Of a stretch of DNA of 64,000 nt, positions 19,939 to 62,980 are shown in pieces. Each line of letters starts with the position of its first letter. Position 1 is the stretch's first letter. The DNA is taken from contig JAFTQG010000049.1 in NCBI GenBank assembly GCA_017462915.1, positions 1 through 64,000 on the forward strand, written 5' to 3'. The stretch comes from Prevotella sp. (GTDB lineage: Bacteria > Bacteroidota > Bacteroidia > Bacteroidales > Bacteroidaceae). Under the pieces are notes generated by a model that did no database searches, had not been told where the DNA came from, and saw only the letters and a program-made list of their open reading frames with translations. The position numbers and the translations under genes are program-made.

Positions 19939-20001
19939 AGTTTTCTTTATTTTGGGTTTTTGAATTTGTTATCGACATCGCCGACATGCACATAGCCATA
20001 G

Positions 20002-20078
20002 GCTGAGGTTTTAGGTTTTAGGTTGTGGGGGTGGGGTTAGTTTCCGACAACCATCAACTGACAACCATCAACCGACGG
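20002..20078 (-). repeat. Possible octamer-arm element in the PPi-PFK leader
   Basis: A G/T-rich arm (ggttttaggttttaggttgt on the plus strand) faces a CAACC-rich arm (acaaccatcaactgacaacc), opposite in sense. The layout resembles the seven octamer-arm elements elsewhere, but neither shared core is present, so membership is uncertain. Confidence 0.35.
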
Positions 20079-20113
20079 AAGCCTGCATCCGCAAGGCCGT
20101 ACATATCTCCCTG

Positions 20114-20121
20114 CAAAGATA
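20114..20121 (-). promoter_or_regulatory. -7 box of the PPi-PFK gene
   Basis: Minus-strand TATCTTTG, an exact TAnnTTTG match. The -33 region is weak. Confidence 0.6.
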
Positions 20122-20214
20122 ACAAAATATTGTCTAACACCCGAATAAATCCGCAAAAAAAATCCAATTTAAAACTTTTTTATTTATAAATTAGGCTATC
20201 TGAGAGATTTTTTA

Positions 20215-20222
20215 TAACTTTG
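20215..20222 (+). promoter_or_regulatory. -7 box of the acyltransferase gene
   Basis: TAACTTTG matches TAnnTTTG, with TTAG 20 nt upstream. It overlaps a possible TTG start at 20220, so that start cannot be used; the ATG at 20256 is the supported start. Confidence 0.6.
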
Positions 20223-20255
20223 AACCCTAATTTGCACTTACACATAAAGACATTC

Positions 20256-20937: not shown

Positions 20938-23745
20938 ATGCTTCGCAAAACGATATCCATATTACTGTTATTCACCGCATTAACCACGATATACGCACAG
21001 CGTCCATGGGTCACGGAGACATCCCGTGCCACGACTCCCGAGAACGGTCTGACGGGCAAGCATCTCGCCGTATGGCCCAGTCACGGACGATACTATAACA
21101 CGACCTTATGCAGATGGGAGTGGCAGAGGGTACAGCTGTACGGCACGTGTGAGGATGTATTCACGCAGTCGATAGTCTATCCCTACCTCATCCCCATGCT
21201 CGAGAGAGCCGGCGCCAACGTCTTCGTGCCGAGGGAGAGGGACTGGCAGACGGAGATGGCCCTCGTCGACAACGATACGCCACGCTCGGGATATTCCGAG
21301 ACGTCGGGACATTATCCGTGGGAAAACGCTCCTGCCCCGGGATTCGCCATTTCCAACAGGCATTACACTGACGGCGACTGCCCTTTTGCAAGCGGAACGG
21401 CAAGGATGGTGAGGACCACAGCGGAAAAGGGAGCCCGCCTGTCACGGGCATTCTACATGCCCCAGATACGCGAAAAAGGCAGATATGCCGTATATGTCAG
21501 CTACCAGACTGTGGAGGAATCCACGGACGACGCCGAGTATATCGTATGTCATCAGGGGCAGTCTACCGTCTTCCGCGTAAACCAGCAGATGGGGTCCTCG
21601 ACATGGGTTTACCTCGGCACATTCGAGTTTGAGGCCAACGCCCCGTCAGACAATTACGTCTGCGTCACCAACCACAGTTCACGGAAAGGCGTGGTGACGA
21701 CAGATGCCGTGCGTTTCGGCGGCGGCATGGGCGACCATGAGCGTGGAGGAAAGACCTCGGGACTGCCGCGTGCCATGGAAGCGGCGCGCTACTACACACA
21801 GTTTGCTGGCGTGCCGAAGGCAATTTACCTCACCAAGGGTGGGTGCAACGACTACAGCGACGACATCAACTGCCGCTCGCTGGCGTCCAACTGGCTGTCG
21901 TACGGTTCGAGGACAAACCCTTCCGAAGCCCCTACTCCACAGCATCCTGTCTTCAATATCGACTCCCTGACATTAGGAGAGAACGCCGTAAGGATGTACC
22001 TTGACAGCATAACGAAAGCGAATATCGACAGCTTCGGCACAGCATATCCCGACAGCATGGCGGAGTTTATCATAGACTCCACAGCCACGGCGATACTCGA
22101 CAGCGTCAACAGCACACCGCTGCAGCAAATCAACATACAGCGCGGAGAGACGCTTCTCGGACATGTGCCGCTCGATTTGCAGCTCGCCATACACAGCGAT
22201 GCCGGCTGGCAACGGGACTTCATGTCACCGTATGGCACCCTGGCGATATGCACGACGGACTTCAACGACGGGGACCTTGCCGACGGAAGACCACGGATAG
22301 TGTCGAAAGACCTTGCCACCGAACTCCTGAGAGGGGTCTCCAAAGACCTGCAAAGGTCGTTCGGAAACTGGACGGCGAGGGATGTCTGGGACAGGAACTA
22401 CAGCGAGACGCGCCTGCCTGCACAGCCGTCGGCAATACTCGAGACCATGTCTCATGAGAATTTCCCTGACCTCCGCCTCGGTCATGACCCGAACTTCAAG
22501 TTCGTCCTCTCACGTGCCATATACAAGACCATCTTGCGCTGGCTGTGTGAAAGGGACGGAAGAAAGGCTGTAGTACAGCCTCTTGCACCGAAATGTTTCT
22601 CGGCGGCAAGGCTTTCCGGCGACGAACTGACACTGTCATGGCAGGCACAGACCGACTCCCTCGAGCCGTTCGCGTCGCCTACTGAATATATATTGTATAC
22701 CCGTACAGGCAACAAGGGATATGACAACGGCACTGTCGTCAAGGGCACAGGATACCGCCTGCACCTGTTACCGAACACCTTATACCGCTTCCGCCTCACT
22801 GCCGCAAACAGCGGTGGCGAGAGTTTCCCGACAGAAGAACTTGTCGCCGTCTATTCTCCTGCGGCTGAGGAGACAGTGATGATTGTCAACGCTTTCCATC
22901 GACTGTCATCGCCGGAGGTCATAGAGACCGACAGCATCTGCGGATTCGACCTCGATGCCGACATCGGTCTGTCATACGGGAAGACCCCGGCATGGATAGG
23001 TCATCAGCGTATCTTCGACAAGACGCTGGCTGGAAAGAATGCAGGGCTCGGGCATACTGCCAACGACCTCCTTGGACGCTTCACCGCCGGAAACGAGTTC
23101 AACTATGCTTCCGCACACGCAGAGGCAATAACGGACGCAGGGAAATATAACATCGTGAGTCTCTCTTCCGAATGTTTCTCCAAGCATACCGACATGAACG
23201 GCGTGACGGTCCTTGACATTCTCTTCGGCAACGAGAAGGATGACGGGCACTCGCTACTGCCTTACAAGACATTCACTCCGCAGATGCGTGAGGCAATAGA
23301 GGCATTCAAAGGACAGGGAGGCGGCATCCTCGTCAGCGGAAGCTATATAGCCTCGGACATGCAGGAGGAAGAGGAGCGTCAGTGGCTTGCCGACAACCTC
23401 CACATGATGTATGGCGGTGTGGACCGCGACTCGCTGCCTTTCCGCACAGCGGAGGCTCTCGACATCGTCTCCGGCAACGGACTTTGCATACCTGTCTACA
23501 GGCATGTAAACGACAGGCACTATGCCTCCGTGGACTCGGATATCCTGTTTACAGCGGACTCCCTGCCCGACAGAACCAGCCTTTCATACGCATCGGGCGC
23601 CACGGCTTCCGTATCATACAGCGGCAAAGGATACCGGGTGTTCGCCCTCGGATTCCCGTTTGAATGTGTGAAGGATGCTGCCAACAGGAGCCTTCTCATG
23701 CGGAAGATACTGGCTTTCCTGACAAATGGACGGAAAGAGGAATGA
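20938..23745 (+). CDS. Secreted N-acetylmuramoyl-L-alanine amidase with inserted golvesin-like domain
   Basis: A 935-residue protein with signal peptide LRKTISILLLFTALTTIYAQ. An Amidase_3 fold starts at residue about 40 (LAVWPSHGRYYN, then LYGTCEDVFTQSIVYPYLIP and GANVFVPRERDW). It is interrupted at about 95-245 by a beta-rich golvesin C-terminal-like domain (GRYAVYVSYQTVEESTDDAE). It resumes with AARYYTQFAGVPKAIYLTKG, the zinc-site LQLAIHSDAGWQ and the last-Glu segment PSAILETMSHENFPD. A fibronectin type III-like domain follows (about 555-640), then a C-terminal alpha/beta domain. Relatives are often labelled xanthan lyase. It probably cleaves peptidoglycan stem peptides; substrate was not tested. 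Confidence 0.82.
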   Translation: MLRKTISILLLFTALTTIYAQRPWVTETSRATTPENGLTGKHLAVWPSHGRYYNTTLCRWEWQRVQLYGTCEDVFTQSIVYPYLIPMLERAGANVFVPRERDWQTEMALVDNDTPRSGYSETSGHYPWENAPAPGFAISNRHYTDGDCPFASGTARMVRTTAEKGARLSRAFYMPQIREKGRYAVYVSYQTVEESTDDAEYIVCHQGQSTVFRVNQQMGSSTWVYLGTFEFEANAPSDNYVCVTNHSSRKGVVTTDAVRFGGGMGDHERGGKTSGLPRAMEAARYYTQFAGVPKAIYLTKGGCNDYSDDINCRSLASNWLSYGSRTNPSEAPTPQHPVFNIDSLTLGENAVRMYLDSITKANIDSFGTAYPDSMAEFIIDSTATAILDSVNSTPLQQINIQRGETLLGHVPLDLQLAIHSDAGWQRDFMSPYGTLAICTTDFNDGDLADGRPRIVSKDLATELLRGVSKDLQRSFGNWTARDVWDRNYSETRLPAQPSAILETMSHENFPDLRLGHDPNFKFVLSRAIYKTILRWLCERDGRKAVVQPLAPKCFSAARLSGDELTLSWQAQTDSLEPFASPTEYILYTRTGNKGYDNGTVVKGTGYRLHLLPNTLYRFRLTAANSGGESFPTEELVAVYSPAAEETVMIVNAFHRLSSPEVIETDSICGFDLDADIGLSYGKTPAWIGHQRIFDKTLAGKNAGLGHTANDLLGRFTAGNEFNYASAHAEAITDAGKYNIVSLSSECFSKHTDMNGVTVLDILFGNEKDDGHSLLPYKTFTPQMREAIEAFKGQGGGILVSGSYIASDMQEEEERQWLADNLHMMYGGVDRDSLPFRTAEALDIVSGNGLCIPVYRHVNDRHYASVDSDILFTADSLPDRTSLSYASGATASVSYSGKGYRVFALGFPFECVKDAANRSLLMRKILAFLTNGRKEE

Positions 23746-23747
23746 CG

Positions 23748-23968
23748 GTGGTTTGGCGGTTTAGTGGTTTGGTGGTTTAGTTATTTAGTCGTTTAGTTAT
23801 TAGCTTATCTATTACGGCTATAAAGGCTATTCCGGCTATCACAAAAAACTAAACAACCAAGCAACTAAATAACTAAACCACTAAACAACTAAACCACCAA
23901 ACAACTAAACAACCAAACAACTAAACAACCAAACAACTAAACAACCAAACCACTAAACAACCAACAAC
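23748..23968 (+). repeat. Octamer-arm inverted element, type II core
   Basis: The left arm (about 23750-23798) is G/T-rich (ggtttagtggtttggtgg). The core 23799-23841 contains three GGCTAT hexamers and matches 39931-39973 with four mismatches in 43. The right arm (about 23846-23968) is built from 8-bp units CAACYAAA/CCACYAAA and runs straight to the ATG of the next gene. The arms are complementary and could fold into one long hairpin. Confidence 0.8.
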
Positions 23969-23969
23969 C

Positions 23970-24290
23970 ATGCAGATAATAGCAAACGCAAAAGGTACAC
24001 GTACCATCGACATCACGCCTGAGCATGTCGAGACAATAAGGAAATACCAGCTTTTCCGCAATCTCATAGACAGCAACGGCATCATCGACGAGACCGTGCT
24101 CGGCAAACTGCGCCTAAACATACGCGCACTGCTCGAGCACGAAGGCACATCGGACAAGAGCCTGATGGACCTCTGCTTCGATGTAATCTATAATCCCGAC
24201 ATGAAAGCCATCGGGCTGCACAACCTTATAAAACTGTATGCAGAACATGATGCTGACAGACTTCCTGCCGACGACCAAGAAGGAGCTTGA
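23970..24290 (+). CDS. Small conserved-looking protein of unknown function
   Basis: A 106-residue soluble, mainly helical protein beginning MQIIANAKGTRTIDITPEHV and ending in a charged tail. It has no signal peptide, membrane segment or recognised motif. Its 3' end overlaps the ygiQ start by 53 nt, indicating translational coupling. The octamer repeat array ends 1-2 nt before its ATG. A real gene is supported by composition and placement; function is unknown. Confidence 0.65.
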   Translation: MQIIANAKGTRTIDITPEHVETIRKYQLFRNLIDSNGIIDETVLGKLRLNIRALLEHEGTSDKSLMDLCFDVIYNPDMKAIGLHNLIKLYAEHDADRLPADDQEGA

Positions 24291-26121: not shown

Positions 26122-26211
26122 AAGGCTACGCACTGCATAAGGCAACGGGAAGCGTATCATCCTGCAATGCCGACTGTATCTCACTGTAATATCAAAGGTT
26201 ACACGATACAA

Positions 26212-26266
26212 AACGGCAAACATTAATAAACTTTAATAATGGTTTATTGGATGTTTGCCGTTTTTT
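26212..26266 (+). terminator. ygiQ terminator, overlapping the next promoter
   Basis: AACGGCAAACAT (26212-26223) pairs perfectly with ATGTTTGCCGTT (26251-26262). An inner AATAAAC/GTTTATT stem extends it, and the T tract runs 26261-26266. Confidence 0.9.
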
Positions 26267-26277
26267 CGCTACCTTTG
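26246..26277 (+). promoter_or_regulatory. Promoter of the ThiE/TenI-like gene inside the terminator
   Basis: ATTG (26246-26249), 20 nt, then TACCTTTG (26270-26277). The -33 lies in the terminator hairpin and the T tract is in the spacer. The ATG at 26297 is about 20 nt downstream. Confidence 0.75.
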
Positions 26278-26296
26278 CACAAAATTATATAGACAG

Positions 26297-27968: not shown

Positions 27969-27979
27969 TTACACGTTGA

Positions 27980-28100
27980 GCGGTCTGTAAGGTTATACGG
28001 AGATATGGAGATTACTTTTTCAGTACCAATATCAGTACGACCACAAACAACCGTAAAACCACATAACCGCATAACCGTAAAACCGCATAACCGTAAAACT
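27980..28100 (+). repeat. Octamer-arm inverted element, type I core
   Basis: The left arm ggttatacgg lies at 27991-28000 and the core GGAGATTACTTTTTCAGTA at 28007-28025. The right arm has an 8-bp period (ccgtaaaa/ccacataa/ccgcataa and so on, about 28041-28099), ending 9-10 nt before the next start codon. Confidence 0.75.
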
Positions 28101-28108
28101 CTGATACA

Positions 28109-29170
28109 TTGAAACATATCATCCTATATCTCATAGCATTCTGTGCCGTCACACAAGTGATGGCACAGAAACTTAGTACCGAGACTCCCGCATACGATTG
28201 CGGACAGGTATTGTTCAGGAACCCTGTAACGACAAAGTTCACGTTGCGTAACAAGTCATCGCGACAGGTTGCCATAAACAGGATAGAGACTTCCTGCGGA
28301 TGTGCCACAGCCGTTGCCTCGCAGACGAAAGTCGGCGGAGGCAAGGAGCTCGTTGTCGACATCACGTACGACGCGAAGCAGTTGGGACATTTCCACAAGG
28401 AGATAAGGATATATGAAGAAGGCCAGAAGAAGCCTCTCGTGCTCACTGTGAAGGGTGTCGTGGTCACAGAGATACAGGATTTCAGCGGCTCATATCCATA
28501 TACTCTCGGCGATATCAGCACAGATGTCAACGAAATAGAGTTTGACGATGTCAGCAAAGGCTCACAACCGATGCTGACCATGCATATCCGCAACACGACA
28601 GGAAGCACCATCGAGCCTGTGATAATGCACCTTCCTGATTATATTGAAGCAAATGTCTCACCGACAAGGCTGAGACCTAACCAGGCCGGTGAAGTCACAT
28701 TCATGCTCCTGTCGTCAAAGCTGAGGGATATGGGACTGACCCAGACTTCGCTTTATCTTGGCAAAAAGCCCGGCGACAAGGTTTCTACCGAGAAGGAAAT
28801 ACCTGTCTCCGTCATTCTGACACCTGCCTTCCCGACACAGGATGCGGCAATAATCGCCAACGCACCTCATCTGGAACTGTCGAAGACTGTCGTCAAGAGG
28901 AGCGAGATGCATGGAAAACCTAACAAGCTGAAGACAGACATCGTATTGCGGAATACCGGCAAGCAGCAGCTTGTAATAAGTGCATTGCAGATGTTCACGG
29001 CAGGAATGAATGTATCACTCAGCAAGTCCAAGATTGAACCTGGTGAGAGTGCAAAGATGAAAATCTCCGTTGACGGCGTTGCCATCAAGCAACTGAAACA
29101 GCGACCACGTATACTTATGATTACAAATGATCCACAACAGCCTAAAGTCATTGTGGAGATTGTAGAGTGA
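28109..29170 (+). CDS. Exported DUF1573 protein
   Basis: A 353-residue protein with signal peptide KHIILYLIAFCAVTQVMAQ. Residues about 22-120 form a DUF1573 immunoglobulin-like domain with the diagnostic NRIETSCGCATAVA. Two further Ig-like repeats follow (from about 125 and 255, e.g. TDIVLRNTGKQQLVISALQM). The start codon appears to be TTG at 28109: no in-frame ATG precedes the signal peptide. It is probably periplasmic or surface; function unknown. Confidence 0.85.
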   Translation: MKHIILYLIAFCAVTQVMAQKLSTETPAYDCGQVLFRNPVTTKFTLRNKSSRQVAINRIETSCGCATAVASQTKVGGGKELVVDITYDAKQLGHFHKEIRIYEEGQKKPLVLTVKGVVVTEIQDFSGSYPYTLGDISTDVNEIEFDDVSKGSQPMLTMHIRNTTGSTIEPVIMHLPDYIEANVSPTRLRPNQAGEVTFMLLSSKLRDMGLTQTSLYLGKKPGDKVSTEKEIPVSVILTPAFPTQDAAIIANAPHLELSKTVVKRSEMHGKPNKLKTDIVLRNTGKQQLVISALQMFTAGMNVSLSKSKIEPGESAKMKISVDGVAIKQLKQRPRILMITNDPQQPKVIVEIVE

Positions 29171-29184
29171 TTATTATCAGCTAT

Positions 29185-29276
29185 TAGGCGGTTTTTAAGG
29201 TTATACGACCATGGAGATACACCCCATACCCGCAAACGCATGACCTACAACCGCTAACCGCATAACCTTGAACCAC
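29185..29276 (+). repeat. Degenerate octamer-arm element upstream of meaB
   Basis: It contains ggttatacg (29199-29207), ggagataca (29213-29221) and a short right arm (ccgctaaccgcataacc) ending close to the meaB start. The core is less well kept than at 28007 or 31312. Confidence 0.5.
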
Positions 29277-31285: not shown

Positions 31286-31405
31286 CGGTTAATACGGTTG
31301 CGCGGTTATATGGAGATCACTTTTCCTGTATACCGCAAGCATCCCAAAACCGAGTAGCCACATAACCATATAACCGCATAACCATAAAACCGCATAACCG
31401 TATAC
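31285..31405 (+). repeat. Octamer-arm inverted element, type I core
   Basis: The left arm cggttaat/acggttgc/gcggttat is in reverse sense. The core GGAGATCACTTTTCCTGTA lies at 31312-31330. The right arm cataacca/tataaccg/cataacca/taaaaccg/cataaccg has an 8-bp period, ending 6 nt before the esterase ATG. Confidence 0.8.
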
Positions 31406-31410
31406 TACCA

Positions 31411-32712: not shown

Positions 32713-32836
32713 CCGTAAACATCTGCAAAACATCTGCAAACTACGATGTGTGAGATGACTTTCTCACAACATTTCATGCAATAAAAACAGCACCGATAAT
32801 AACCAAAATACATTACATTTATTTCGGAAAATATTA

Positions 32837-32876
32837 CCCATATTACTGATTCGTTTGGTAATATGGGATTTTTTTT
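32837..32876 (+). terminator. Acetylxylan esterase terminator, overlapping the tatA promoter
   Basis: CCCATATTAC (32837-32846) pairs with GTAATATGGG (32858-32867), followed by a T tract at 32869-32876. Confidence 0.9.
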
Positions 32877-32885
32877 GTATTTTTG
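32854..32885 (+). promoter_or_regulatory. tat operon promoter inside the terminator
   Basis: TTTG (32854-32857), exactly 20 nt, then TATTTTTG (32878-32885): a full Bacteroidota consensus. The -33 lies in the loop of the upstream terminator and its T tract fills the spacer. A 9-bp perfect hairpin (AATAGGCTG/CAGCCTATT, 32893-32915) lies at the 5' end of the expected transcript. Confidence 0.85.
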
Positions 32886-32892
32886 CAACCGT

Positions 32893-32915
32893 AATAGGCT
32901 GTTTTGCAGCCTATT
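32893..32915 (+). promoter_or_regulatory. 5' leader hairpin of tatA
   Basis: AATAGGCTG, a TTTTG loop and CAGCCTATT form a perfect 9-bp stem right after the predicted transcription start. It could stabilise the mRNA or act as an operator. The overlap with the start is seen; the role is inferred. Confidence 0.5.
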
Positions 32916-32954
32916 CTAAGCAAGTAAACAACAAACCTAAAACAATTAAAGACT

Positions 32955-39862: not shown

Positions 39863-39868
39863 AATTGT

Positions 39869-40008
39869 TGTTTTGTTATTTTGTCGTTTGGTTGATGATT
39901 GTTTGACGGTTTTATTATTGGTGGTTAGGCTGATAGCCAGGATAGCCTGTATAGCCGTAATATATAAGCTAATGACTATACCAACCAAACCACAAAACGA
40001 CTATACCA
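39869..40008 (-). repeat. Octamer-arm inverted element, type II core
   Basis: It lies between mazG and the lipoprotein gene. Read on the minus strand, a G/T-rich arm (ggtttggttgg) comes first. The core (39973-39931) matches 23799-23841 with four mismatches in 43 and keeps three GGCTAT hexamers. A CAACCAAA-type arm then runs to within about 10 nt of the lipoprotein ATG. Confidence 0.8.
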
Positions 40009-40797: not shown

Positions 40798-40973
40798 AAT
40801 TCCAACTTTATTTATTAATGTCTGCAGATACTTTACCGATAGGCTTGCCACTGCTCAGCCATATCATTTCAGCTCTGCTTTACTATATTTATTACAAAGG
40901 AAACATGCCATCCGCGGCAAGCAAAATGGCATTTCCCATGCCGTCTGCTGACGGTGTGCAGAGAAGCACGATA

Positions 40974-40981
40974 CAAAAGTA
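40974..40981 (-). promoter_or_regulatory. -7 box upstream of mazG
   Basis: Minus-strand TACTTTTG, a TAnnTTTG match about 175 nt upstream of the mazG ATG. No clear -33. Confidence 0.45.
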
Positions 40982-41056
40982 CACATAAAATTCCAAAAAC
41001 TTGCACACGAACATAAAATAAGTGCAAAAAAATTCTTTTCTTACCAAAATAATGAG

Positions 41057-50705: not shown

Positions 50706-50707
50706 GG

Positions 50708-50777
50708 TATGACTTGTGAGGTATGGTAATCTCCGTAAAACTGCACACCGTATAACCATAAAACCGTAAAACCGTAT
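50708..50777 (+). repeat. Octamer array upstream of the fluoride channel gene
   Basis: A type I-like core appears in reverse sense (GGTAATCTCC, 50725-50734), followed by 8-bp units (ccgtaaaa, ctgcacac, cgtataac, cataaaac) reaching to 4 nt before the ATG. A left G/T-rich arm is short (gtgaggtatg). Confidence 0.6.
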
Positions 50778-50780
50778 TAC

Positions 50781-51255: not shown

Positions 51256-54200
51256 ATGTCCTTCTGGAATAGAATTATAGACACAATCAATGGGGCAGAG
51301 AACAAACCAGCTCATTTACAGGAAGTATCACATGATGCCTCTCGCTATGTTCTTGTAGATGTTGAGGTTGGATTAAAGGATAATAAGATTCATGATATTG
51401 GAGCTCTACGATGGGACGGAGCAATATATCATTCCGCAAACAGGCGAGAGCTGATGGATTTCTTAAAAGATGCGGATTTTATCTGTGGACATAACATCAT
51501 CAATCATGATGCAAAATATCTGTTTGGAGAAGAGATATGCAGATTTTTACTCGTTGACACACTGTTTGTGTCACCATTACTTTTCCCAGAACGTCCGTAT
51601 CATCACTTGCTGAAAGACGACAAGCTGGTAAGCGACCAGATGAACAATCCTGTCAACGACTGTGAGAAAGCTCGTGATTTATTGATGGATGAAACAGCTC
51701 GATGGGAAGAACTGTCTGCCTCAATGAAGGCTATCTACTCAACTCTGCTTCAAGACCATGATGAGTTCAAGGGATTTCTCGCCTTCGTCAATGCCAAAGT
51801 CTGTAAGAAAGAGACATTAGCAAAGTTGATTCGTTCAGAATATATAGGAAAGATTTGCGAACATGCAGATCTTGAAAGCATGATAAACCTGTATCCCTGT
51901 GAACTGGCATACGCACTTGCATTGATAGCTACCACAGACCATCGTTCCATCACACCGGCATGGGTGCTGCATAACTACCCGAATGTGGAGAATCTGATAC
52001 AACTTCTCCGACATACAAAATGTACAGAAAGTTGTACTTATTGCAATAAAGACCTTGATGTCCTTGTTAATCTGAAATTGTTCTTCGGCTTTGATAAGTT
52101 CCGTACCTACGAAGGCGAACCGCTACAGGAGAATGCCGCACGTGCAGCCGTTGAGCATAAATCGTTGCTCGCCATCTTCCCTACAGGCGGAGGGAAATCA
52201 CTGACATTCCAGTTGCCGGCCTTGATGGAAGGACGTTCGGTGCATGGGCTTACAGTTGTCATATCACCCTTGCAGTCATTGATGAAAGATCAGGTGGATA
52301 ATCTGGCTGCAAGAGGTATTACGGACGCAGTCACTATCAACGGTTTGCTCGATCCGATTAGCCGTTCAGAAGCTATTCAACGGGTGATGAACGGTGATGC
52401 TTCGCTATTGTATATTGCTCCAGAGATGCTTCGGTCGAAGACAATAGAGAAGATATTGCTGACACGCCATGTAGTACGCTTTGTAATAGACGAAGCGCAT
52501 TGTTTTTCCTCTTGGGGACAGGACTTCCGTGTGGATTATCTCTACATTGGCAAGTTTATCAGTCAATACCAAAAGAATAAAAAATGTCGTGAACCAATAC
52601 CCGTTTCCTGCTTTACTGCAACTGCTAAGCAGAAAGTGATACAGGATATTTGCGACTATTTCAAATATACACTCAACCTCGACCTTCAGATTTTTGCATC
52701 TTCGGCAACTCGTACCAACCTACGTTATTCGGTAATTCACGCTGATACGGATGAGGATAAGTACATGAAATTACGTTCTTTGATAGCAGAATCATCATGT
52801 CCTACCATTGTGTATGTTTCCCGAACCAAACGTACAAGACAACTGGCAGATAAGCTCACAAGAGACGGCTTCAAAGCTTTGCCATTCAATGGCAGGATGG
52901 ATGCGGAAGACAAAATCATCAATCAGGAAGCATTCATGAAGGATCAGGTACGCATCATTGTGGCAACCTCTGCCTTTGGAATGGGCGTTGACAAAAAAGA
53001 TGTGGGGCTGGTGATACATTATGACATTTCCGATTCATTAGAAAATTATGTCCAAGAGGCTGGTCGTGCCGGTCGTGATCCGCATCTCGAAGCTCGCTGT
53101 TTTGTACTGTATAGCGATACCGACCTTGACAAACATTTCATCTTGCTCAATCAGACAAAGCTGAGCATTAGCGAGATACAGCAGATATGGAAAGCCGTAA
53201 AGGACTTGACCAGACAACGTATGCGTGCATGTTGCTCTGCATTGGAAATAGCCAGGAAGGCTGGTTGGGACGACTCGGTATCTGACATTGAGACACGTGT
53301 ACGGACGGCTCTGGCAGCATTGGAACAGGCTGGTTATTTAGAGCGCGGCAACAATGTACCACATGTCTATGCCACGGGAATAACCGTGAAAAACATAGAC
53401 GAAGCCCGCAGACGTATCACGGAATCCTTGCTTTTTGAGAATGAGGAGATAGAAAAGGCAGTGCGCATCATAAAGTCGCTGATATCGCAGAAGCATATTG
53501 CCAAGGCTCAAGACGCAGAAGCAGAATCGCGCATAGATTATCTGGCTGACATTCTCGGACTGAGCAAGGGCGAAGTTGTCTCCTGCGTGGAGCGTATGCG
53601 CCAAGAAGGCATTCTGGCCGATTCGAAGGATATATCTGCCTTTCTTGGCGATGCAGGAGAATCGGAAAATAAGTCAAAACGTCTGTTGGAACGGTTTACT
53701 AAACTTGAACGTTATATCCTCAGACAGATACCTGATGATGCACTCCGCATATCATATAAGCAACTGAACGATAACGCGCAGAAAGAAGGTGTCGAGACTG
53801 CGACAGAAAAAGATATCCGCACATTGTTATATTTCTTGACGGTCAAAGGCTATACACGTAAGAAAGAGGATGTCGCACACAATATAGAGGTATCTCGCCA
53901 AGTGGATATGGAGTCAACTCTGAAGCGTTTTGAGAAACGTATGGAGATATGCCAGTTCACGATAGGATGGCTGTACAGACTTACAACACCAGTCACGGAC
54001 GAAGGAGCAAAGAAAAATGGTGTCCAGTTCTCTGTCGTGGAGTTGCTGAATGATTTGAAAGCTAATGGACAGGGCATATTCGGAACCTTGCAGGACGTAC
54101 AGTTGGAAGATGTAGAGGAGTCTTTGCTCTACCTGTCGAAGATTGGTGCCCTGAAACTGGAGGGAGGTTTCCTTGTGCTCTATAATGCAATGGACATACG

Positions 54201-56139
54201 TCGTATCAAAGATAGCAGACTGCGGTATAAACAAGAGGACTACCGTATGCTTAGTGAATTCTACAAACAGAAGATTCAGCAAGTGCATATTGTGGGCGAG
54301 TATGCCAATCTGATGGTACGAGACTATCATGCAGCTCTACAGTATGTGCAGGATTACTTCCAGATGGATTACAAGCGGTTTGTTTCGAAATATTTTAAAG
54401 GAGAACGTGTACGGGAAATAGAACGAAATGTCACTCCAGAGAAATATAAGCATATTTTTGGTATGCTCTCTGCAAAACAGATGGAGATTATCTCCGACAA
54501 GGAATCGCGTTGTATAGTGGTTGCGGCTGGCCCTGGCAGTGGTAAGACGCGAGTCCTGGTACATAAGCTCGCCTCGCTGCTATTGCTCGAAGATGTAAAG
54601 CATGAACAGCTATTAATGCTCACTTTCTCGCGTGCAGCAGCTATAGAGTTCAAACAACGGCTGATGGGGCTCATCGGCAATGCGGCTCATTTTGTAGAAA
54701 TCAAGACATTCCATTCCTATTGTTTTGACCTGTTGGGCAGAATCGGCAATCTCGATGATGCAAAGGATGTGGTAGCGCGTGCAGCACAAATGATTAGGGA
54801 TGGAGAAGTCGAGCCGAATCGTATTGCCAAGACAGTCATGGTTATTGATGAGGCACAGGATATGAGCGATGAGGAATATGCCTTAGTACACGCCTTGATG
54901 ACAACCAACGAGGAGATGCGTATCATTGCCGTTGGCGATGATGACCAGAATATATTTGAATTCCGTGGTTCAGACTCACGATACATGACAAAACTACTTC
55001 AAGAATCCGAAGGCCGACTTATTGAAATGACAGAGAACTACCGCAGTTCGCGGAATGTAGTCGATTTTGCCAACACATTTGTGAGTGGAATAAAAGGACG
55101 AATGAAGAGCGAGCCCATCATTTCCATGAATCATAAAGAAGGTTTTGTCAGCATTCACCATCATGTTTCACACACGATGTACCAGCCTCTTATCGATGAT
55201 TTGTTGGCTCACCGTGGGGAAAGCTCAACCTGTGTGTTGACCCAAACCAATGAGGAGGCAGTCATCCTTGTTGCTTTATTGCGCAAATACGGATTGAGCA
55301 GCAAATTGATACAGAGTATGGATGGCTTCAAGTTCTGGAATATGGCTGAGGTGCGTATGTTCCTTAAGTTAATAAACAGTAGCGTACATACACCAGTCAT
55401 TCCTGATAATATATGGGAAAATGCTAAGCACAAGACTCTTGCCATGTATGCAGATTCTTCGAGCCTCCATTACCTGCAACGGTGTATCTCGATATTTGAG
55501 CAGACTAATAAAACAAAGTATCACACCGATTTCAAGGAATTTGTCTTTGAGTCGTCGGTCGAGGATTTCTGTGACCTTACAGGTGCAGACGTAGTGGTGT
55601 CTACAATACATAAGGCCAAAGGGCGTGAATTTGATGATGTTTATATGCTCATCACGAGTCCACAACACATCCAGAACGAAGTGCTACGCAGATATTATGT
55701 AGGGGCTACCCGAGCAAAAGAGCGCCTGTTCATCCATACCGACTGTTCTCTTTTCGACCGTATGCCTGCTGATGAACACCATGGCTGCCAACAGCTGTAT
55801 GACATGCCTGACGAAATTGTTCTTCAGTTGTCGCATAAGGATGTAAACCTTGGTTTCTTCAAATCGCGAAAAAATAAGATACTTGCCCTCAGAGCAGGTC
55901 AGACACTGCGTTTTGACAAGAACTATCTTTATGACTGTTGTACGGATATGACTGTTGCACAATTATCACAGAAGATGCAAGGAGAGTTGCGCCTTTGGGC
56001 TGAAAAAGGATATTCTGTCATATCCGCTTCCATCCGTTTTATTGTGGCATGGCGTCCGAAGGATGCACCGAAAGAAGAAAAGGAACATGCCGTATTGCTC
56101 GTTGATTTAATACTAAAAAAGGGAGAGAGAATATCATAA
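51256..56139 (+). CDS. DnaQ-like exonuclease, RecQ helicase and UvrD helicase fused in one protein
   Basis: A 1627-residue protein with three modules. (1) Residues about 31-150: DEDD exonuclease fold, VLVDVEVG (D35/E37), GHNIINHDAKYL (D85), NNPVNDCEKA (D135), with Asn where the catalytic His is expected. (2) About 285-700: RecQ, with FPTGGGKSLTFQLPAL, VIDEAHCFSSWGQDFR, SAFGMGVDKKD and QEAGRAGRD; the RecQ zinc site is not evident. (3) About 1075-1510: SF1A UvrD/PcrA, with AAGPGSGKTRVLV, VIDEAQDMSDEEY, GDDDQNIFEFRG, HKAKGREFDDVY and RRYYVGATRAKERL. A Cys trio (CTESCTYC) lies before RecQ. Composition is more AT-rich than neighbours, suggesting acquisition. Role in repair or phage defence is open. 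Confidence 0.88.
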   Translation: MSFWNRIIDTINGAENKPAHLQEVSHDASRYVLVDVEVGLKDNKIHDIGALRWDGAIYHSANRRELMDFLKDADFICGHNIINHDAKYLFGEEICRFLLVDTLFVSPLLFPERPYHHLLKDDKLVSDQMNNPVNDCEKARDLLMDETARWEELSASMKAIYSTLLQDHDEFKGFLAFVNAKVCKKETLAKLIRSEYIGKICEHADLESMINLYPCELAYALALIATTDHRSITPAWVLHNYPNVENLIQLLRHTKCTESCTYCNKDLDVLVNLKLFFGFDKFRTYEGEPLQENAARAAVEHKSLLAIFPTGGGKSLTFQLPALMEGRSVHGLTVVISPLQSLMKDQVDNLAARGITDAVTINGLLDPISRSEAIQRVMNGDASLLYIAPEMLRSKTIEKILLTRHVVRFVIDEAHCFSSWGQDFRVDYLYIGKFISQYQKNKKCREPIPVSCFTATAKQKVIQDICDYFKYTLNLDLQIFASSATRTNLRYSVIHADTDEDKYMKLRSLIAESSCPTIVYVSRTKRTRQLADKLTRDGFKALPFNGRMDAEDKIINQEAFMKDQVRIIVATSAFGMGVDKKDVGLVIHYDISDSLENYVQEAGRAGRDPHLEARCFVLYSDTDLDKHFILLNQTKLSISEIQQIWKAVKDLTRQRMRACCSALEIARKAGWDDSVSDIETRVRTALAALEQAGYLERGNNVPHVYATGITVKNIDEARRRITESLLFENEEIEKAVRIIKSLISQKHIAKAQDAEAESRIDYLADILGLSKGEVVSCVERMRQEGILADSKDISAFLGDAGESENKSKRLLERFTKLERYILRQIPDDALRISYKQLNDNAQKEGVETATEKDIRTLLYFLTVKGYTRKKEDVAHNIEVSRQVDMESTLKRFEKRMEICQFTIGWLYRLTTPVTDEGAKKNGVQFSVVELLNDLKANGQGIFGTLQDVQLEDVEESLLYLSKIGALKLEGGFLVLYNAMDIRRIKDSRLRYKQEDYRMLSEFYKQKIQQVHIVGEYANLMVRDYHAALQYVQDYFQMDYKRFVSKYFKGERVREIERNVTPEKYKHIFGMLSAKQMEIISDKESRCIVVAAGPGSGKTRVLVHKLASLLLLEDVKHEQLLMLTFSRAAAIEFKQRLMGLIGNAAHFVEIKTFHSYCFDLLGRIGNLDDAKDVVARAAQMIRDGEVEPNRIAKTVMVIDEAQDMSDEEYALVHALMTTNEEMRIIAVGDDDQNIFEFRGSDSRYMTKLLQESEGRLIEMTENYRSSRNVVDFANTFVSGIKGRMKSEPIISMNHKEGFVSIHHHVSHTMYQPLIDDLLAHRGESSTCVLTQTNEEAVILVALLRKYGLSSKLIQSMDGFKFWNMAEVRMFLKLINSSVHTPVIPDNIWENAKHKTLAMYADSSSLHYLQRCISIFEQTNKTKYHTDFKEFVFESSVEDFCDLTGADVVVSTIHKAKGREFDDVYMLITSPQHIQNEVLRRYYVGATRAKERLFIHTDCSLFDRMPADEHHGCQQLYDMPDEIVLQLSHKDVNLGFFKSRKNKILALRAGQTLRFDKNYLYDCCTDMTVAQLSQKMQGELRLWAEKGYSVISASIRFIVAWRPKDAPKEEKEHAVLLVDLILKKGERIS

Positions 56140-57940: not shown

Positions 57941-57955
57941 TCTATTTGGTTGTCT

Positions 57956-58091
57956 GGTTGTTTAGTGGTTTGGTTGTTTGGTTGTTTAGTTAATGGTTAT
58001 AGGTCTTGGGTGTCGGTCACAGGAAGAGTAATATCCGTAAAACCGCATAGAACCGTATAAACCGCCTAACAGTAAAACCGCACAACCGTAT
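57956..58091 (-). repeat. Octamer-arm inverted element, type I core, minus orientation
   Basis: On the minus strand: a left arm (cggttgtgcggttttactg...), the core GGATATTACTCTTCCTGTG (58036-58018), then a CAACCAAA-type arm (57990-57956) ending next to the DEAD-box helicase ATG. Orientation relative to the downstream gene is the same as at 31285. Confidence 0.75.
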
Positions 58092-58096
58092 TTGTT

Positions 58097-61000
58097 TTAA
58101 TTAACTTCAAGCACCTTTGAGGCCTCCATCGCAGAGAACTCCGGCGCATAGGCACAGGAGACGGTGCAGACGCCCTGCTGATACCTGCCTTCACGGTCTA
58201 CGTAATACTCTGTCTCGATGATGTGTGTACCTCGTGCCATCTTGTCAAAATAGTAGTTGGTCATACGGTCCTTACTCTCACGGTAATATCCGCTCCATGA
58301 GCCGCGCGCAAGTCCTTCTGTCCTTGCCGCCTCGTAACCGCTCAGCTGGCGTACCGGTTCGAGACAAGCGGCGTGGTTGTCCGTTACCTTGACGAAATCG
58401 TAGTCACGGTCAGCTACTATGGTAAGACGCACAGTGACCTTGCTGCCTGCAGCGAGTTTCTTCTCGCCGAGTATCTCATGCTTTATGGAGAAACCCGTGC
58501 CGCGGGTCTTCACAGACGACAGCGGAGCACGCTGTGTGACAAGCAGTCCACCCCATGCTGTACCTTTGGAGTCCTTGACGGCGGAGAACACTGTCTGTCC
58601 CTGCTCTATGCCGACAGTCTCGCCATCCTTCACCTCCTTGTCGCCGAGGGTGAGACGGCTTACGATATTGCGGTCGAGATTCAAGTCATGGTTGCCGCTG
58701 ATAAACGCCCATACGGCATCAGCCGTGTTTGCGGAGTTGTCCCACTGCTGTGTGCGCTTCTCGTGAAGAAGCCACTGCTGCATCTCCTCCACAGTCCGCT
58801 GGTCGTCAGGGCAGACTATACGCAGAGCCTCTATCGCCGCCACCTCCGTAGGTATCTTGTAGTTGCGCCAAGAGTAGAAAGCCTTTCTTGTATCATAGAA
58901 GCGGCCTGCCTCCGGAGTGTATACAGAGTATTGCTTCATGCTCTCGATGAACTCCAGCGCCTTGGCTTTCTTGCCGTGAAGGGCGAGAATCACCGCGCTG
59001 TGAGCCTTGCCGTAGATAGTGAACTCGGCAGGAACTTTCTCCATCAGTCCAATGAGAAACTTTATATCCGCCTCGGCCTTAGTGCCGAAAGTCTTGCCGC
59101 TCTTCCTCTGCAAAGCGCAGATGTAGAGGATATCCGTGGCAAGTTCGGAAGGATGCACACCCTTTAAGGACTTCATCTTGCGCAAGTCCTTCACCTCCTT
59201 GCCGAGCACATTGAGGAGATACGGCATGGCCTTCTGCAACATGCTGTCGGTCTCCGCTGTACCTATGTATTTATGGTGCAGGCGTGCAAAATATCTTGCG
59301 ACACTTGCCGTCATGTAGGCAGAACCCTCCATGCCTTTCCACCATGACCATGAGCCATCGGTACGCTGCAGCTCGCGAAGCTCACGTGCCAATGATGTCA
59401 CCAGCGTGTCAGGTGTCTGGGCTGGATACATCGTGCCGACATACAACGCCGTCGCCAAGGATATGGCATCCTTGTGCTCAGGACGTATTATATGAGGAAT
59501 GGCATCGAGCACCATGCCCTCGGCGTTTGCCGTGAATCTCACCGTCATCCTGCGGTCTGTACTACCCTTTATGAGCAAGTCCTTGATGTCTGTGGTATAG
59601 AGGCTGTCGCCACGCTGGGTGAATGCTATGGTAGTTGTGGTCTCCTCCACAGCTGGGAGTACAGGGATATAGTGCTGCTCGCCATCGCTTGCCCCATTAG
59701 GAACACTGGCGACAACACGGTAGACAAGCACACTGTCACTGAACGTAATGACCGGAGCTTCAAGGGCTACAGTCTCCGAACGGTTGGCACCGAGAGCGAC
59801 AGAGGTCTTCTTCTCCCATATGACTTTCTCAGCGTCAGAGGAGAGAAGCTGCATGATGACATCGGCAGTGATATCCTCGTCTGTGGTATTGCTTACCGTT
59901 GACGCAAAGACCGGACGGTCGCCGATACGGCGGTCGCCTTCGCGGAGGAAACGAGGGACATTAGGCTTGACGATGATGTCCTTGCGTGCCACGCAGGTTG
60001 TGTCGACAAAGGCGTGACGCATCTTGTCGTCATGGACGAAACCGAGGAAGCGCCATGTCGTCATGGTCTCCGGCATGGTGAACGATATTGTCATATTGCC
60101 GTCCTTGTCTGCCACGAGCGACGGTGTGAAATATGCTGTCTCACCGAGGTCTGTGCGAACAAGTGTGGAGAGATCTGCCACACTGCCGCCATCTATACCG
60201 CCACTCTCTGCACTGTCATTGCTCTCTTCCTCGATTGTCTCCACTGCAGCATAACTGCCGACTGCGGTCGATGCAGCCTCTTTGCTTTGTGAGACAATGC
60301 AAAAGGCCTTATTTTCCTTCCTCTTCATAAGCGGCATCACTTCACGGTCAGACTTTATAACTGGAGGCGTGAACTCATAATTAAACAGTTCTGGTTTGAA
60401 CCGTGCATAGTCTATTAACTTCTCTGTAAGGTACTTGTATGCCGCAAATTTGCTGCACCAGAAGTCCCTGGAATCTTTTATCACCCAATCAGCAGATAGA
60501 TAGAAACTGTTACGTATAATCTGCGCGCTCCAGCTCAACCGCGCCTCGGCATCAAGGCTCTTGTCGTATATTGTAGCTATCATGGAAGCGTATCCGACAG
60601 GATTTCCCTTACTGCTATTTATACGCAGGCTCCATGTCTCCAAAGCTCCCGGGTGTGTCTTGTCCCTGAAAGTGGTCCATACCGGCATGAGGCGGAGGTC
60701 CGGCTGCGGGCGCTTGATAGTCTCGGCGAATCTATATGTCTGGCCGTTCCTTATCGCTACACATCTCAGATAAAGCTCCTCGCCATATTCCTTTTTATAA
60801 GAGAACTTGCGTGAATACGAGCCTTTGACGGTGAATGTACCGTTCTCTATGCACTTATCGTCTGCGAAGAGCGAGTAACGTACATACAAAGGCTGGCGTG
60901 ATGCCGTATCCTTTACAGTGAAAAGGACATTGCCCTGCTGAGGGAAAGCCTTGTCACTGACCTCAAACTTCGGTTTGTCGCTCTTCTCTTCACCATTATC

Positions 61001-62980
61001 CGAAGCATTGAAGAAATCCTTCCATACAGAATTGGCAGTCCTTGCCCTGACATAGGTTCTTGCCTCACGCGACTCGCCGTCCTTGCCGGTCACCTTGGCG
61101 GTAATCTCATATATGAACATGCTGAAGCCTTCCTCCGGCAACGTGACATGGAGAGGAATGACAACCCTGCCTTCGCTGTCTGTAACGGTTTTTACATTCT
61201 CGGCTATCAGGCGTGGGGTGCTGAAACGGAAGAAATGAGGACGGCGCTTCACCGTATACTCGACAACGGCGTTGCTGACAGGAAGCGACGTGAATGTCTT
61301 TGCCTCGAAAGCCACCGCTACACTGTCGCCATGGAGATAAATGCTGTCGGGAGAGGCGTATCTCGTATCGTCGCGGACGGCATTGACATCAAATGTAGGA
61401 CGCTTATATTCCTCAACCCTGACAAAAGTGCTGGCATATACGCTGTGTGCCGTCTTTGCAGTGATGGAGAAACGGCCATTCTTCGCAAGGTTTTTCGGTA
61501 TAGCAAACTCAAATCCTGCATTGCCATGAGTGTCCGTTATGACGGAATCCGTGTATATTTCCTTGTATTCCGCATCCATGATGGATATATTCACCTGCCT
61601 GCCCGGAACAACATGAATGGAGTCTATATCGGCGGCTTTGTGCGCCACGACACTGCCCTTTATCGTCTGGCCCGGACGATATATGGCCCTGTCCGTGAAG
61701 AGCGTCAGTATATCCTTCTCTTCCTTGTGTCCGTCATAGTAGAAACCGCAGAAATAAGACCTTCTTCTAAAAGCCTTATCCGAAGATGTATAGGCATAGA
61801 CACCATTCTGCATAAAGTCGCCGCTGAAGATAGCCTCGCCGTCTTTGGATGTCACAGCAGTATATGTATTGACAGTTTTGTCTCTCATCCGCTGGGTAAG
61901 TATAATATTACAGGATGGAATTCCCTTGCCTGTCGTCGCCGATACGGCTACAAGTCGCTGGCGGTTCTTGTCGAGAGGAAGGGCGAGTATCGCTATGTCC
62001 GAGTTGTACATGACCTCGTATGCGACAAGTCCATTTGCCGATGTCTTGACGAGATACACACCGACAGGAAGCTGCGGACGCTCAAGTGTGTCATTCACTA
62101 TCTCCCATGGCTTGCTGGAAGAGTAGTCGCGCGATATGACATGAACGGCCTTGCCGTCCACAAGTTTCAGCAGTTTCGCCATGTCGGCCTTGTTTTCCAC
62201 ATCCAAATCCAGCGTGCCGTCGGCACGGAGAGGGAGAAATTCGATGGCGAGCTTGCCTATGTTCCTTACATTCCGCACTATAAGTTTGTCATCGATAGAC
62301 AGCCCAAACTGTGAGCATGTGATGCGGTTGAGCTGGTTCTTGAAGAAGTTGACATACTTGTTGTCGCTGTATCGGCTGATGCAGTCCAGCAGATATGCAT
62401 GACGTGACTGGTTGGAGATGTCATCATCGTTGAGCATAACAGTGTAATACTCCTGTGCCAGCAGCGCCACTTCCTCTATGTCCTTATATCTCTGCATACC
62501 GCTCTCCAGCATCTGGCGCTTGTGCGTCATTGACAGTTCGTCGTTGCTTATGTCAAGGTTGCGCACCTCAAAAAACAGTTCCACACAAGCCGCCTTACGG
62601 TTTCCTATACTGTCATAGTATTCCTTGAGGAAACCGTAACGGCCAGCCTGATGGCCGATGATACTGAGCAGGTCATTGTTCCACAGCGCATCATCCGCAC
62701 CTTTGTTTATTATACGTTTCCACGGTGTTGACTTCTCCCTTGCCAGAAGGTCAGGATTCGCCAGAGCCTTGTCGTAATCTTGCTTTATAGTATAATAGAC
62801 AGCGGCAAGCACAGGATCCTTCTCTGCCAACTTCTCTATCTTCTGAAGCTGTTCCTGAGCGTCCTGATACATGTCTTTCTCGACAGCCTCACAATATTTT
62901 TTCCATATCGTGTCATAGTCTGCGGCAGAGACTGTCAGAGACAAAGCCACAGAGAACATCATTGCAAGAATCTTTTTCAT
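58097..62980 (-). CDS. Alpha-2-macroglobulin-like protein without thioester
   Basis: A 1627-residue exported protein (signal MKKILAMMFSVALSLTVSAA). It has an N-terminal helical region (about 20-200), macroglobulin domains with the diagnostic TDRAIYRPGQTIKGSVVAH (MG2, about 430), the A2M domain (AYFTPSLVADKDGNMTISFT, TTWRFLGFVHDD, about 950-985) and the alpha-toroid (about 1120 on, GSWSWWKGMEG). The thioester site after NAEGMVLDAIPHI reads RPEHKDAISLA, so the CxEQ thioester is absent. Bacterial relatives trap proteases in the periplasm; without thioester, capture would be non-covalent. Confidence 0.92.
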   Translation of the reverse strand: MKKILAMMFSVALSLTVSAADYDTIWKKYCEAVEKDMYQDAQEQLQKIEKLAEKDPVLAAVYYTIKQDYDKALANPDLLAREKSTPWKRIINKGADDALWNNDLLSIIGHQAGRYGFLKEYYDSIGNRKAACVELFFEVRNLDISNDELSMTHKRQMLESGMQRYKDIEEVALLAQEYYTVMLNDDDISNQSRHAYLLDCISRYSDNKYVNFFKNQLNRITCSQFGLSIDDKLIVRNVRNIGKLAIEFLPLRADGTLDLDVENKADMAKLLKLVDGKAVHVISRDYSSSKPWEIVNDTLERPQLPVGVYLVKTSANGLVAYEVMYNSDIAILALPLDKNRQRLVAVSATTGKGIPSCNIILTQRMRDKTVNTYTAVTSKDGEAIFSGDFMQNGVYAYTSSDKAFRRRSYFCGFYYDGHKEEKDILTLFTDRAIYRPGQTIKGSVVAHKAADIDSIHVVPGRQVNISIMDAEYKEIYTDSVITDTHGNAGFEFAIPKNLAKNGRFSITAKTAHSVYASTFVRVEEYKRPTFDVNAVRDDTRYASPDSIYLHGDSVAVAFEAKTFTSLPVSNAVVEYTVKRRPHFFRFSTPRLIAENVKTVTDSEGRVVIPLHVTLPEEGFSMFIYEITAKVTGKDGESREARTYVRARTANSVWKDFFNASDNGEEKSDKPKFEVSDKAFPQQGNVLFTVKDTASRQPLYVRYSLFADDKCIENGTFTVKGSYSRKFSYKKEYGEELYLRCVAIRNGQTYRFAETIKRPQPDLRLMPVWTTFRDKTHPGALETWSLRINSSKGNPVGYASMIATIYDKSLDAEARLSWSAQIIRNSFYLSADWVIKDSRDFWCSKFAAYKYLTEKLIDYARFKPELFNYEFTPPVIKSDREVMPLMKRKENKAFCIVSQSKEAASTAVGSYAAVETIEEESNDSAESGGIDGGSVADLSTLVRTDLGETAYFTPSLVADKDGNMTISFTMPETMTTWRFLGFVHDDKMRHAFVDTTCVARKDIIVKPNVPRFLREGDRRIGDRPVFASTVSNTTDEDITADVIMQLLSSDAEKVIWEKKTSVALGANRSETVALEAPVITFSDSVLVYRVVASVPNGASDGEQHYIPVLPAVEETTTTIAFTQRGDSLYTTDIKDLLIKGSTDRRMTVRFTANAEGMVLDAIPHIIRPEHKDAISLATALYVGTMYPAQTPDTLVTSLARELRELQRTDGSWSWWKGMEGSAYMTASVARYFARLHHKYIGTAETDSMLQKAMPYLLNVLGKEVKDLRKMKSLKGVHPSELATDILYICALQRKSGKTFGTKAEADIKFLIGLMEKVPAEFTIYGKAHSAVILALHGKKAKALEFIESMKQYSVYTPEAGRFYDTRKAFYSWRNYKIPTEVAAIEALRIVCPDDQRTVEEMQQWLLHEKRTQQWDNSANTADAVWAFISGNHDLNLDRNIVSRLTLGDKEVKDGETVGIEQGQTVFSAVKDSKGTAWGGLLVTQRAPLSSVKTRGTGFSIKHEILGEKKLAAGSKVTVRLTIVADRDYDFVKVTDNHAACLEPVRQLSGYEAARTEGLARGSWSGYYRESKDRMTNYYFDKMARGTHIIETEYYVDREGRYQQGVCTVSCAYAPEFSAMEASKVLEVN

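Follow-up and report, generated by a model that had tools for sequence, protein, structure and literature searches.

The window, the stretch of 64,000 nucleotides of Prevotella DNA analysed here, carries at 23746-23969 an element that fills exactly the gap between the stop codon of one gene (23743-23745) and the ATG of the next (23970). The upstream gene (20938-23745) encodes a product with Golvesin_C and fn3 matches, the downstream open reading frame (23970-24290) has 106 amino acids, overlaps a radical-SAM gene and yielded no match in a Pfam search at E 0.001. On the forward strand, a G/T-rich arm of type II octamers (complement of AACYAAAC) begins directly after the upstream stop codon (23746-23798). 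It is followed by a core of 43 bp, recognised by pattern match (23799-23841), and by a C/A-rich arm of about 15 octamers that reaches the ATG (23842-23969). Tandem Repeats Finder (TRF), used for the arm periods in the window, reported period 8 for both arms, with 6.2 copies at 23748-23797 and 14.9 copies at 23843-23961. Sequence and TRF agree in this with the first-pass annotation, which had described a G/T arm, a core and a C/A octamer arm ending at the next ATG. Its 43-bp core is present as a stretch, but not as a separate unit, being a run of tandem 9-mers GGCTATNNN in sense orientation. Folded as RNA, the region has a predicted energy of -68.6 kcal/mol (z -7.9), and none of 200 shuffles was equally stable. 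In the stretch leading up to the AUG, the final ten bases have a predicted mean unpaired probability of 0.88 and the preceding ten one of 0.64; the register of the hairpin is uncertain, with 39 unpaired bases before the AUG in the best structure versus 7 in the centroid.

The core recurs once in the window, at 39931-39973 on the reverse strand, where 4 of 42 bases differ from copy 1, as had been noticed before. A 42-base core pattern derived from both copies (up to 3 mismatches) matched the window only at 23800-23841 (+) and 39931-39972 (-) and was absent from 100 shuffles of the window. Copy 2 is embedded in an element with irregular arms that occupies the whole intergenic region 39863-40008 (-), bounded by the stop codon of a MazG-domain gene and by the ATG of a gene weakly matching Lipocalin_3. 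An array of three AACY motifs at spacing 8 was sought in it and none was found. Its RNA fold was not significant (z -1.7, 10 of 200 shuffles as stable); the very long hairpin proposed from the sequence holds for copy 1, but not for copy 2. Both copies belong to the commoner kind of element, with the core in sense only.

Further elements in the window consist of type I octamers (AACCGYAW). The one at 27969-28108 (+) has a C/A array ending at 28100, 8 bases before an open reading frame with a TTG start at 28109, a start that the hexamer gene caller placed at 28160 instead. Between co-directional neighbours, the C/A arm of the element at 31286-31410 (+) stops a few bases short of the ATG at 31411. 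A short type I element (50706-50780, +) precedes a CrcB-like gene and a degenerate one lies at 29171-29276 (+). By eye, the element at 57941-58096 (-), in front of a DEAD-box helicase gene, is chimaeric, its stop-side arm being type I and its start-side arm type II. The intergenic region 19939-20255 between divergent genes, to which no strand was assigned, holds 7-mer arrays (AACY at spacing 7). Near the chimaeric element, two oppositely oriented open reading frames of 1627 amino acids each (51256-56139 and 58097-62980) were considered as an inverted duplication; they have no homology, hence their equal length is chance.

The window belongs to a genome (G000) of 2,926,307 bases in 59 contigs, in which three AACYNNAH octamers in a row had 307 overlapping matches and the same pattern read backwards had none. 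A looser 9-mer core pattern (up to 2 mismatches, overlapping) matched the genome 151 times, and the 42-base core (up to 3 mismatches) is present in 6 copies. Intergenic regions were studied in a sample of 829,630 bases including the window, for which three contigs were taken whole and four in part. With a home-made hexamer ORF caller, 536 genes were predicted therein, some with inaccurate starts. Octamer arrays were present in 89 of the 429 intergenic regions of at least 30 bp, namely in 67 of 319 co-directional, 14 of 54 convergent and 8 of 56 divergent regions. Within these regions lay 126 arrays; 3 others were centred outside them, one of these at the end of a contig. The 9-mer core GGCTATNNN gave 305 matches, of which 300 were intergenic, and its reversed motif 3. 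Both counts contradict a placement mostly inside genes, which the first-pass annotation had named as the finding that would speak against it. A strict test for arrays running on into genes was negative: the gene edge was crossed by at least 6 bases in 1 of the 22 arrays close to a stop and in none of the 38 close to a start, although on visual reading some stop codons seem to belong to an arm. Arrays of three AACY motifs covered 4060 bases at spacing 8, of which 3946 were intergenic, and 1622, 398, 141 and 578 bases at spacings 7, 6, 9 and 12, respectively. The eight commonest octamer units were AACCACCA, AACTAAAC, AACCAAAC, AACCACTA, AACCGTAA, AACCGCAT, AACCGTAT and AACCGCCT. BLAST revealed repeats in common with another region for 200 of 421 intergenic regions of 30-3000 bp. 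A depletion of the promoter-like TAnnTTTG in array regions was not confirmed (4 of 55 versus 22 of 156, p 0.24). Very long type II arrays occur at C14 8282-8972 and C16 3089-3652, the latter with 22 units counted. By eye, the C14 array lies between a terminator-like hairpin on its upstream side and a promoter-like TATTTTTG on its downstream side, and is therefore unlikely to belong to the leader at this site.

Other repeat families were observed in the same genome. One palindromic repeat, with AAAGTCCCG at one end and GAGCGAAGCTC at the other, is 95-98% identical over 150-180 bp among several copies (C38 25093-25365, 56088-56377, 92792-93122, 171223-171747 and 177904-178197; C10 317-796) and lies within or beside octamer arms, as if inserted into them. 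An element of about 200 bp with inverted ends AAGTAAGTCRCCAAAATTAA occurs at C25 57562-57874 and C30 216332-216566 with 89% mutual identity, and the end of one of the two copies coincides with an ATG. Convergent junctions (C30 144654-145069 and 185410-187028, C14 50419-51764) harbour another family of about 200 bp, with 92-95% identity.

In its full form, the element reads from the stop codon through G/T-rich 7- or 8-mers, reverse-complement 9-mers (ATAGCC), a centre, 9-mers (GGCTAT) and C/A-rich 7- or 8-mers to the start codon. Where co-directional genes enclosed both core orientations, the antisense core was on the stop side in 23 of 23 cases, thus, where the element is complete, co-directional genes are separated by a nested palindrome. 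Cores between convergent and between divergent genes had no clear polarity about the middle of the region, with 25 outward and 20 inward in each. The C/A strand of the octamer arrays pointed outward, toward the nearer gene, in 109 of 126 cases (85 of 94 co-directional, 15 of 21 convergent and 9 of 11 divergent), and 43 of 58 7-mer arrays were outward as well. Arms are spelled as type I (AACCGYAW), type II (AACYAAAC) or 7-mers such as AACTCAT and AACCTAC. After omission of 28 of 88 elements that were untyped on at least one arm, 43 of the remaining 60 had the same type on both arms, where 28.8 were expected and 40 was the maximum in 10,000 permutations. Overall, the two arms of one element paired more stably (-32.5 kcal/mol) than arms combined across elements (-28.4 kcal/mol), and none of 5000 permutations reached so low an energy. 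Exact mirror copies were considered and rejected: native type II pairs reached -42.4 and swapped pairs -44.2 kcal/mol (31 elements, permutation p 0.91), type I gave p 0.54 (11 elements), and the best 40-nt identity was 0.744 versus 0.760 (28 type II elements). The pairing of the arms is not tuned beyond arm type, and the arms are not simple mirror copies.

The elements change rapidly between sister species. Over 16 kb, the sister genome (G076) shares about 93% identity with the window, and the ordinary intergenic regions at 26122-26296, 32713-32954 and 40798-41051 of the window are 91-93% identical to it. Of the intergenic pairs, 36 could be mapped to stretches of the sister genome; the median identity was 0.46 for the 14 regions with octamer arrays in G000 and 0.88 for the 22 without. 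The latter group was defined by the lack of three AACY at spacing 8 in G000 and includes copy 2 (identity 0.35) and other 7-mer or core regions, hence the contrast is conservative. The site of copy 1 has a shorter element in the sister (118 versus 224 bp), that of copy 2 no recognisable element (80 versus 146 bp). By strict count, arrays were present in both species at 11 orthologous sites, in a single species at 7 and 5, and in neither at 13, a weak association (p 0.09). All four arms could be typed at 7 loci, 16 of the 23 listed orthologous rows lacking a type on at least one arm: two loci kept type I, four had switched both arms together (II to I twice, II to 7-mer and I to 7-mer) and one had changed to a mixed pair. 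The sister orthologues of the junctions at C38:125814, 159477, 172747 and 184106 contain a nested palindrome of their own, GTAGGGACGTACCGTGGTGCGTCC, which the matching G000 junctions do not have.

The octamer pattern was searched in 276 Prevotella genomes that are at least 90% complete; it had at least one match in 101 and more than 20 in 17 (307 in G000, 451 in G094), with a reversed-pattern control that was not always silent (G369, 0 matches and 47 in the control; G044, 17 and 37). In 150 genomes of the genus, the core pattern (up to 2 mismatches, overlapping) had 151 matches in G000, 20 in the sister, 1 in one other genome and 0 in the remaining 147. The spelling of the octamers varies by species, e.g., AACCTCAY, AACTCAAA and AACTGTAA, among others. 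In three other genomes of the genus, sampled with 400,000 bases each, 41 of 45 arrays were outward (14 of 14, 10 of 14 and 17 of 17), and start-only regions outnumbered stop-only ones 10 to 3 (p 0.09). A smaller sample of G293 (185,438 bases), left out of this pool, held three arrays, all outward, one start-only and one stop-only. Junctions of G008, G004 and G001 had the same layout from stop codon to start codon; among 20 stretches from other species, only some with a junction, two clear arms were not seen in those of G012, G019 and G009. Outside the family, none of 16 genomes from other families of the order had more than 4 matches to the octamer pattern.

The position of the arrays in co-directional regions is biased toward starts. 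Octamer arrays were on the start side only in 42 regions, on the stop side only in 13 (p 1e-4) and on both in 12, and in these 12 the start-side arm was longer in 9, equal in 3 and shorter in none. Cores behaved alike (sense-only 53, antisense-only 10, p 3e-8, both 23), as did 7-mers (22 start-side only versus 5 stop-side only). The orientation bias to starts expected by the first-pass annotation was found in these counts, 42:13 for octamers and 53:10 for cores, but not in proximity: the median distance was 25.5 bases for the 78 arrays pointing at starts and 28.5 bases for the 48 pointing at stops. Base composition was counted in co-directional regions of at least 70 bp. The 30 bases before starts were A 0.44, C 0.23, G 0.12 and T 0.21 in 196 regions without an array, and A 0.47, C 0.32, G 0.07 and T 0.13 in 67 regions with one. 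The 30 bases after stops were nearly even without an array (A 0.29, C 0.21, G 0.23, T 0.27) and G/T-rich with one (G 0.31, T 0.38). C/A arms are thus close to the composition of a normal leader, whereas G/T arms are unlike normal post-stop sequence. The predicted accessibility of leaders was the same with and without arrays (0.606 and 0.616). A comparison of native and flipped folding did not separate the groups either, native being better in 51 of 57 regions with arrays and in 51 of 60 sampled regions without.

We read copy 1 as one copy of a dispersed, fast-evolving palindromic short-tandem-repeat element that is selfish or tolerated, not a dedicated regulator, and that is filtered by translation; the probability of this reading is roughly one half. 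Judged from the sequence, the element family appears to be dispersed, and a selfish or tolerated status is the most likely one. The positional bias suggests that translation may act as the filter, as C/A-rich RNA before a start would be harmless or even useful to a ribosome working without Shine-Dalgarno pairing. If such an arm is tolerated there, only families with outward C/A arms would consequently be able to fill gene junctions; the start-side half would be retained and may grow, the stop-side half would erode. Where both arms are long, e.g., in copy 1, the RNA is predicted to form a hairpin with the ten bases before the AUG mostly open. Against this reading, the start-side bias would be explained just as well by a real function, with the leader benefiting some genes. 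The outward polarity between convergent genes (15 of 21 arrays) is also beyond what a filter at start codons explains, unless each family inherits its polarity. Some loci may have a dedicated regulatory role.

As a general explanation, dedicated translation control, with a long C/A leader that recruits ribosomes or S1 and an octamer number or hairpin that sets downstream expression, appears doubtful, although it has several observations in its favour. The start-side bias is common to octamers, cores and 7-mers, the start-pointing arrays end at a median of 25.5 bases before starts, and the copy-1 hairpin is pronounced (z -7.9). An unstructured leader is reportedly needed in Prevotella: in the portion of the study on Prevotella bryantii drawn on here, the reporter level was fivefold lower if the region before the start was in secondary structure, a hairpin at -21 caused no loss, and S1 binding to unstructured leaders was proposed (PMC3155529). 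The start-side bias and this published requirement, with the resemblance of the C/A arm to ordinary leaders, agree with the leader that the first-pass annotation had suggested. They do not extend to a dedicated element, given that the frequency of arrays in convergent regions (14 of 54), which contain no start codon, matches that in co-directional ones (67 of 319). Arrays lie as near to stops (median 28.5 bases), leaders with arrays are no more accessible than ordinary ones, the copy-2 hairpin is not significant and the hairpin hence not general, and sister species rewrite the arrays rapidly; all this counts against dedicated control.

A miniature inverted-repeat element (MITE) moved by a transposase and comparable to BrickBuilt of Porphyromonas gingivalis, with octamer arms as internal minisatellites, is unlikely. 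The dispersed copies with a common core, the palindromic layout and the resemblance of the different repeat of about 150-180 bp in this genome to a nested insertion would fit. Among the elements inspected, however, fixed termini were absent and arm length and type varied; no target duplication was noticed on unsystematic inspection, and a Y1 transposase (PF01797) was absent from the genome, while 5 of 14 control genomes matched. The same search (0 matches in G000, controls positive in 5 of 14) led us to reject an origin as REP elements with RAYT transposases.

A more far-reaching reading, which we rate as slightly less probable still, holds that Prevotella gene junctions contain exchangeable palindromic cassettes whose two arms are swapped together, at a fixed stop-to-start site, on the time scale of species formation. 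If so, the outward polarity shared with other species and with the published heptamers of two other phyla would suggest one common, so far undescribed process by which G-rich repeats are written from gene edges inward, while the start-side half is selected by translation initiation.

A role in transcription is very unlikely. Rho prefers C-rich, G-poor RNA, and the outward C/A strands give each passing transcript such a stretch, possibly as a Rho loading site; alternatively, arrays could act as bidirectional terminators or stabilisers between genes, and they do occur between convergent genes too. No U-run followed the arms in elements read by eye, however, and the majority of carriers lie between co-directional genes, in which termination would have a polar effect.

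The repeat units look telomere-like, and the G/T strand runs mostly inward from gene edges. By analogy with DRT10, for which the part of the report used here describes synthesis of tandem-repeat DNA (PMC12632851), a reverse transcriptase might have added repeats at DNA ends that later fused as G/T-rich 3' extensions, and RVT_1 matches exist in this genome (2) and its sister (1); with matches in 8 of 18 genomes, this genome among them, and in 3 of 14 controls, and with none in the array-rich G094, G069 and G348 (97, 98 and 91% complete), we rejected this origin as hardly credible.

In this one genome, roughly one in five of the intergenic regions sampled holds layered palindromes, with a measurable orientation and start-side bias and a fast, partly concerted replacement between sister species. 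Two questions thereby become accessible to tests: which process writes and exchanges these repeats, and to what extent the requirement for an unstructured leader moulds intergenic DNA in a phylum that does not use Shine-Dalgarno pairing. REP and BIME elements with RAYT transposases are intergenic palindromes, often in more than 100 copies; in contrast, the Prevotella genome is without a Y1 transposase, and no fixed REP-like hairpin was noticed. Tandem repeats of 6-9 bases between bacterial genes are, according to the part of the literature consulted, rarely reported and little understood (PMC4692102), and no paper on such intergenic, palindromic or heptanucleotide repeats in Prevotella was found among the papers listed in searches of the open-licence literature. 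BrickBuilt of Porphyromonas gingivalis (Klein et al. 2015, PMC4596501), from the same order, is likewise intergenic and has tandem repeats in an inverted-repeat element. As far as the consulted part of that paper describes it, BrickBuilt has a 23-nt repeat, leader and tail subunits and 19 copies at 49-591 nt from the nearest genes, whereas the Prevotella arms have neither end subunits nor a 23-nt unit, are variable and run to gene edges in the elements inspected.

The closest published kinds, in the portions of the two reports drawn on here, are the heptamer repeats of Xanthomonas and Nostoc (PMC4692102) and the TAACTGA repeats (PMC4679880). TAACTGA repeats (MacGregor 2015, PMC4679880) are mostly intergenic, forward toward the start and most often end 1 nt before it in a Beggiatoaceae genome; they were also described from five Bacteroidetes, a translational role was proposed, and one reverse-oriented set directly follows a stop codon. 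Short AACT-containing tandem units in mostly intergenic locations are common to both. The unit there is a fixed 7-mer in two to six copies in the Beggiatoaceae genome and up to 43 in some others, and the part of the report consulted describes no systematic inverted partner or core (PMC4679880), while the Prevotella arrays consist mainly of 8-mers, with variable units and frequent stop-side arms. Among the eight commonest 7-mer or 8-mer units of our sample, neither TAACTGA nor any of its rotations appeared, and the start-proximal forward orientation is biased, but far from exclusive (78 start-pointing versus 48 stop-pointing arrays).

The G-rich heptamers of Xanthomonas and Nostoc (Rehm et al. 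2015, PMC4692102), according to the parts of that account used here, have the G-rich strand near the edge of the upstream open reading frame, at distances of up to 50 bp from stops (sense strand) or starts (antisense strand). Two close repeats were in convergent orientation in 70 and 75 cases, and some overlap stop codons. They share with the Prevotella arrays the mostly intergenic location (3946 of 4060 bases of period-8 arrays), the position at gene edges and the inverted pairs, and also the G-strand that starts near an open reading frame and runs inward (109 of 126 arrays, and 41 of 45 in the other genomes). The heptamers are 7-nt units of GGGANTN that form G-quadruplexes in vitro, come from other phyla and are rarer between divergent open reading frames (PMC4692102), whereas Prevotella octamers cover 4060 bases and its 7-mers, AACTCAT and the like, 1622. 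An increased genomic stability was reported near the heptamers, the opposite of the fast turnover in Prevotella, and a 9-mer core or a layered palindrome filling the junction is not described in the consulted parts (PMC4692102). The Prevotella elements differ from both published kinds in unit length, the layered core, the filling of whole junctions and their fast turnover.
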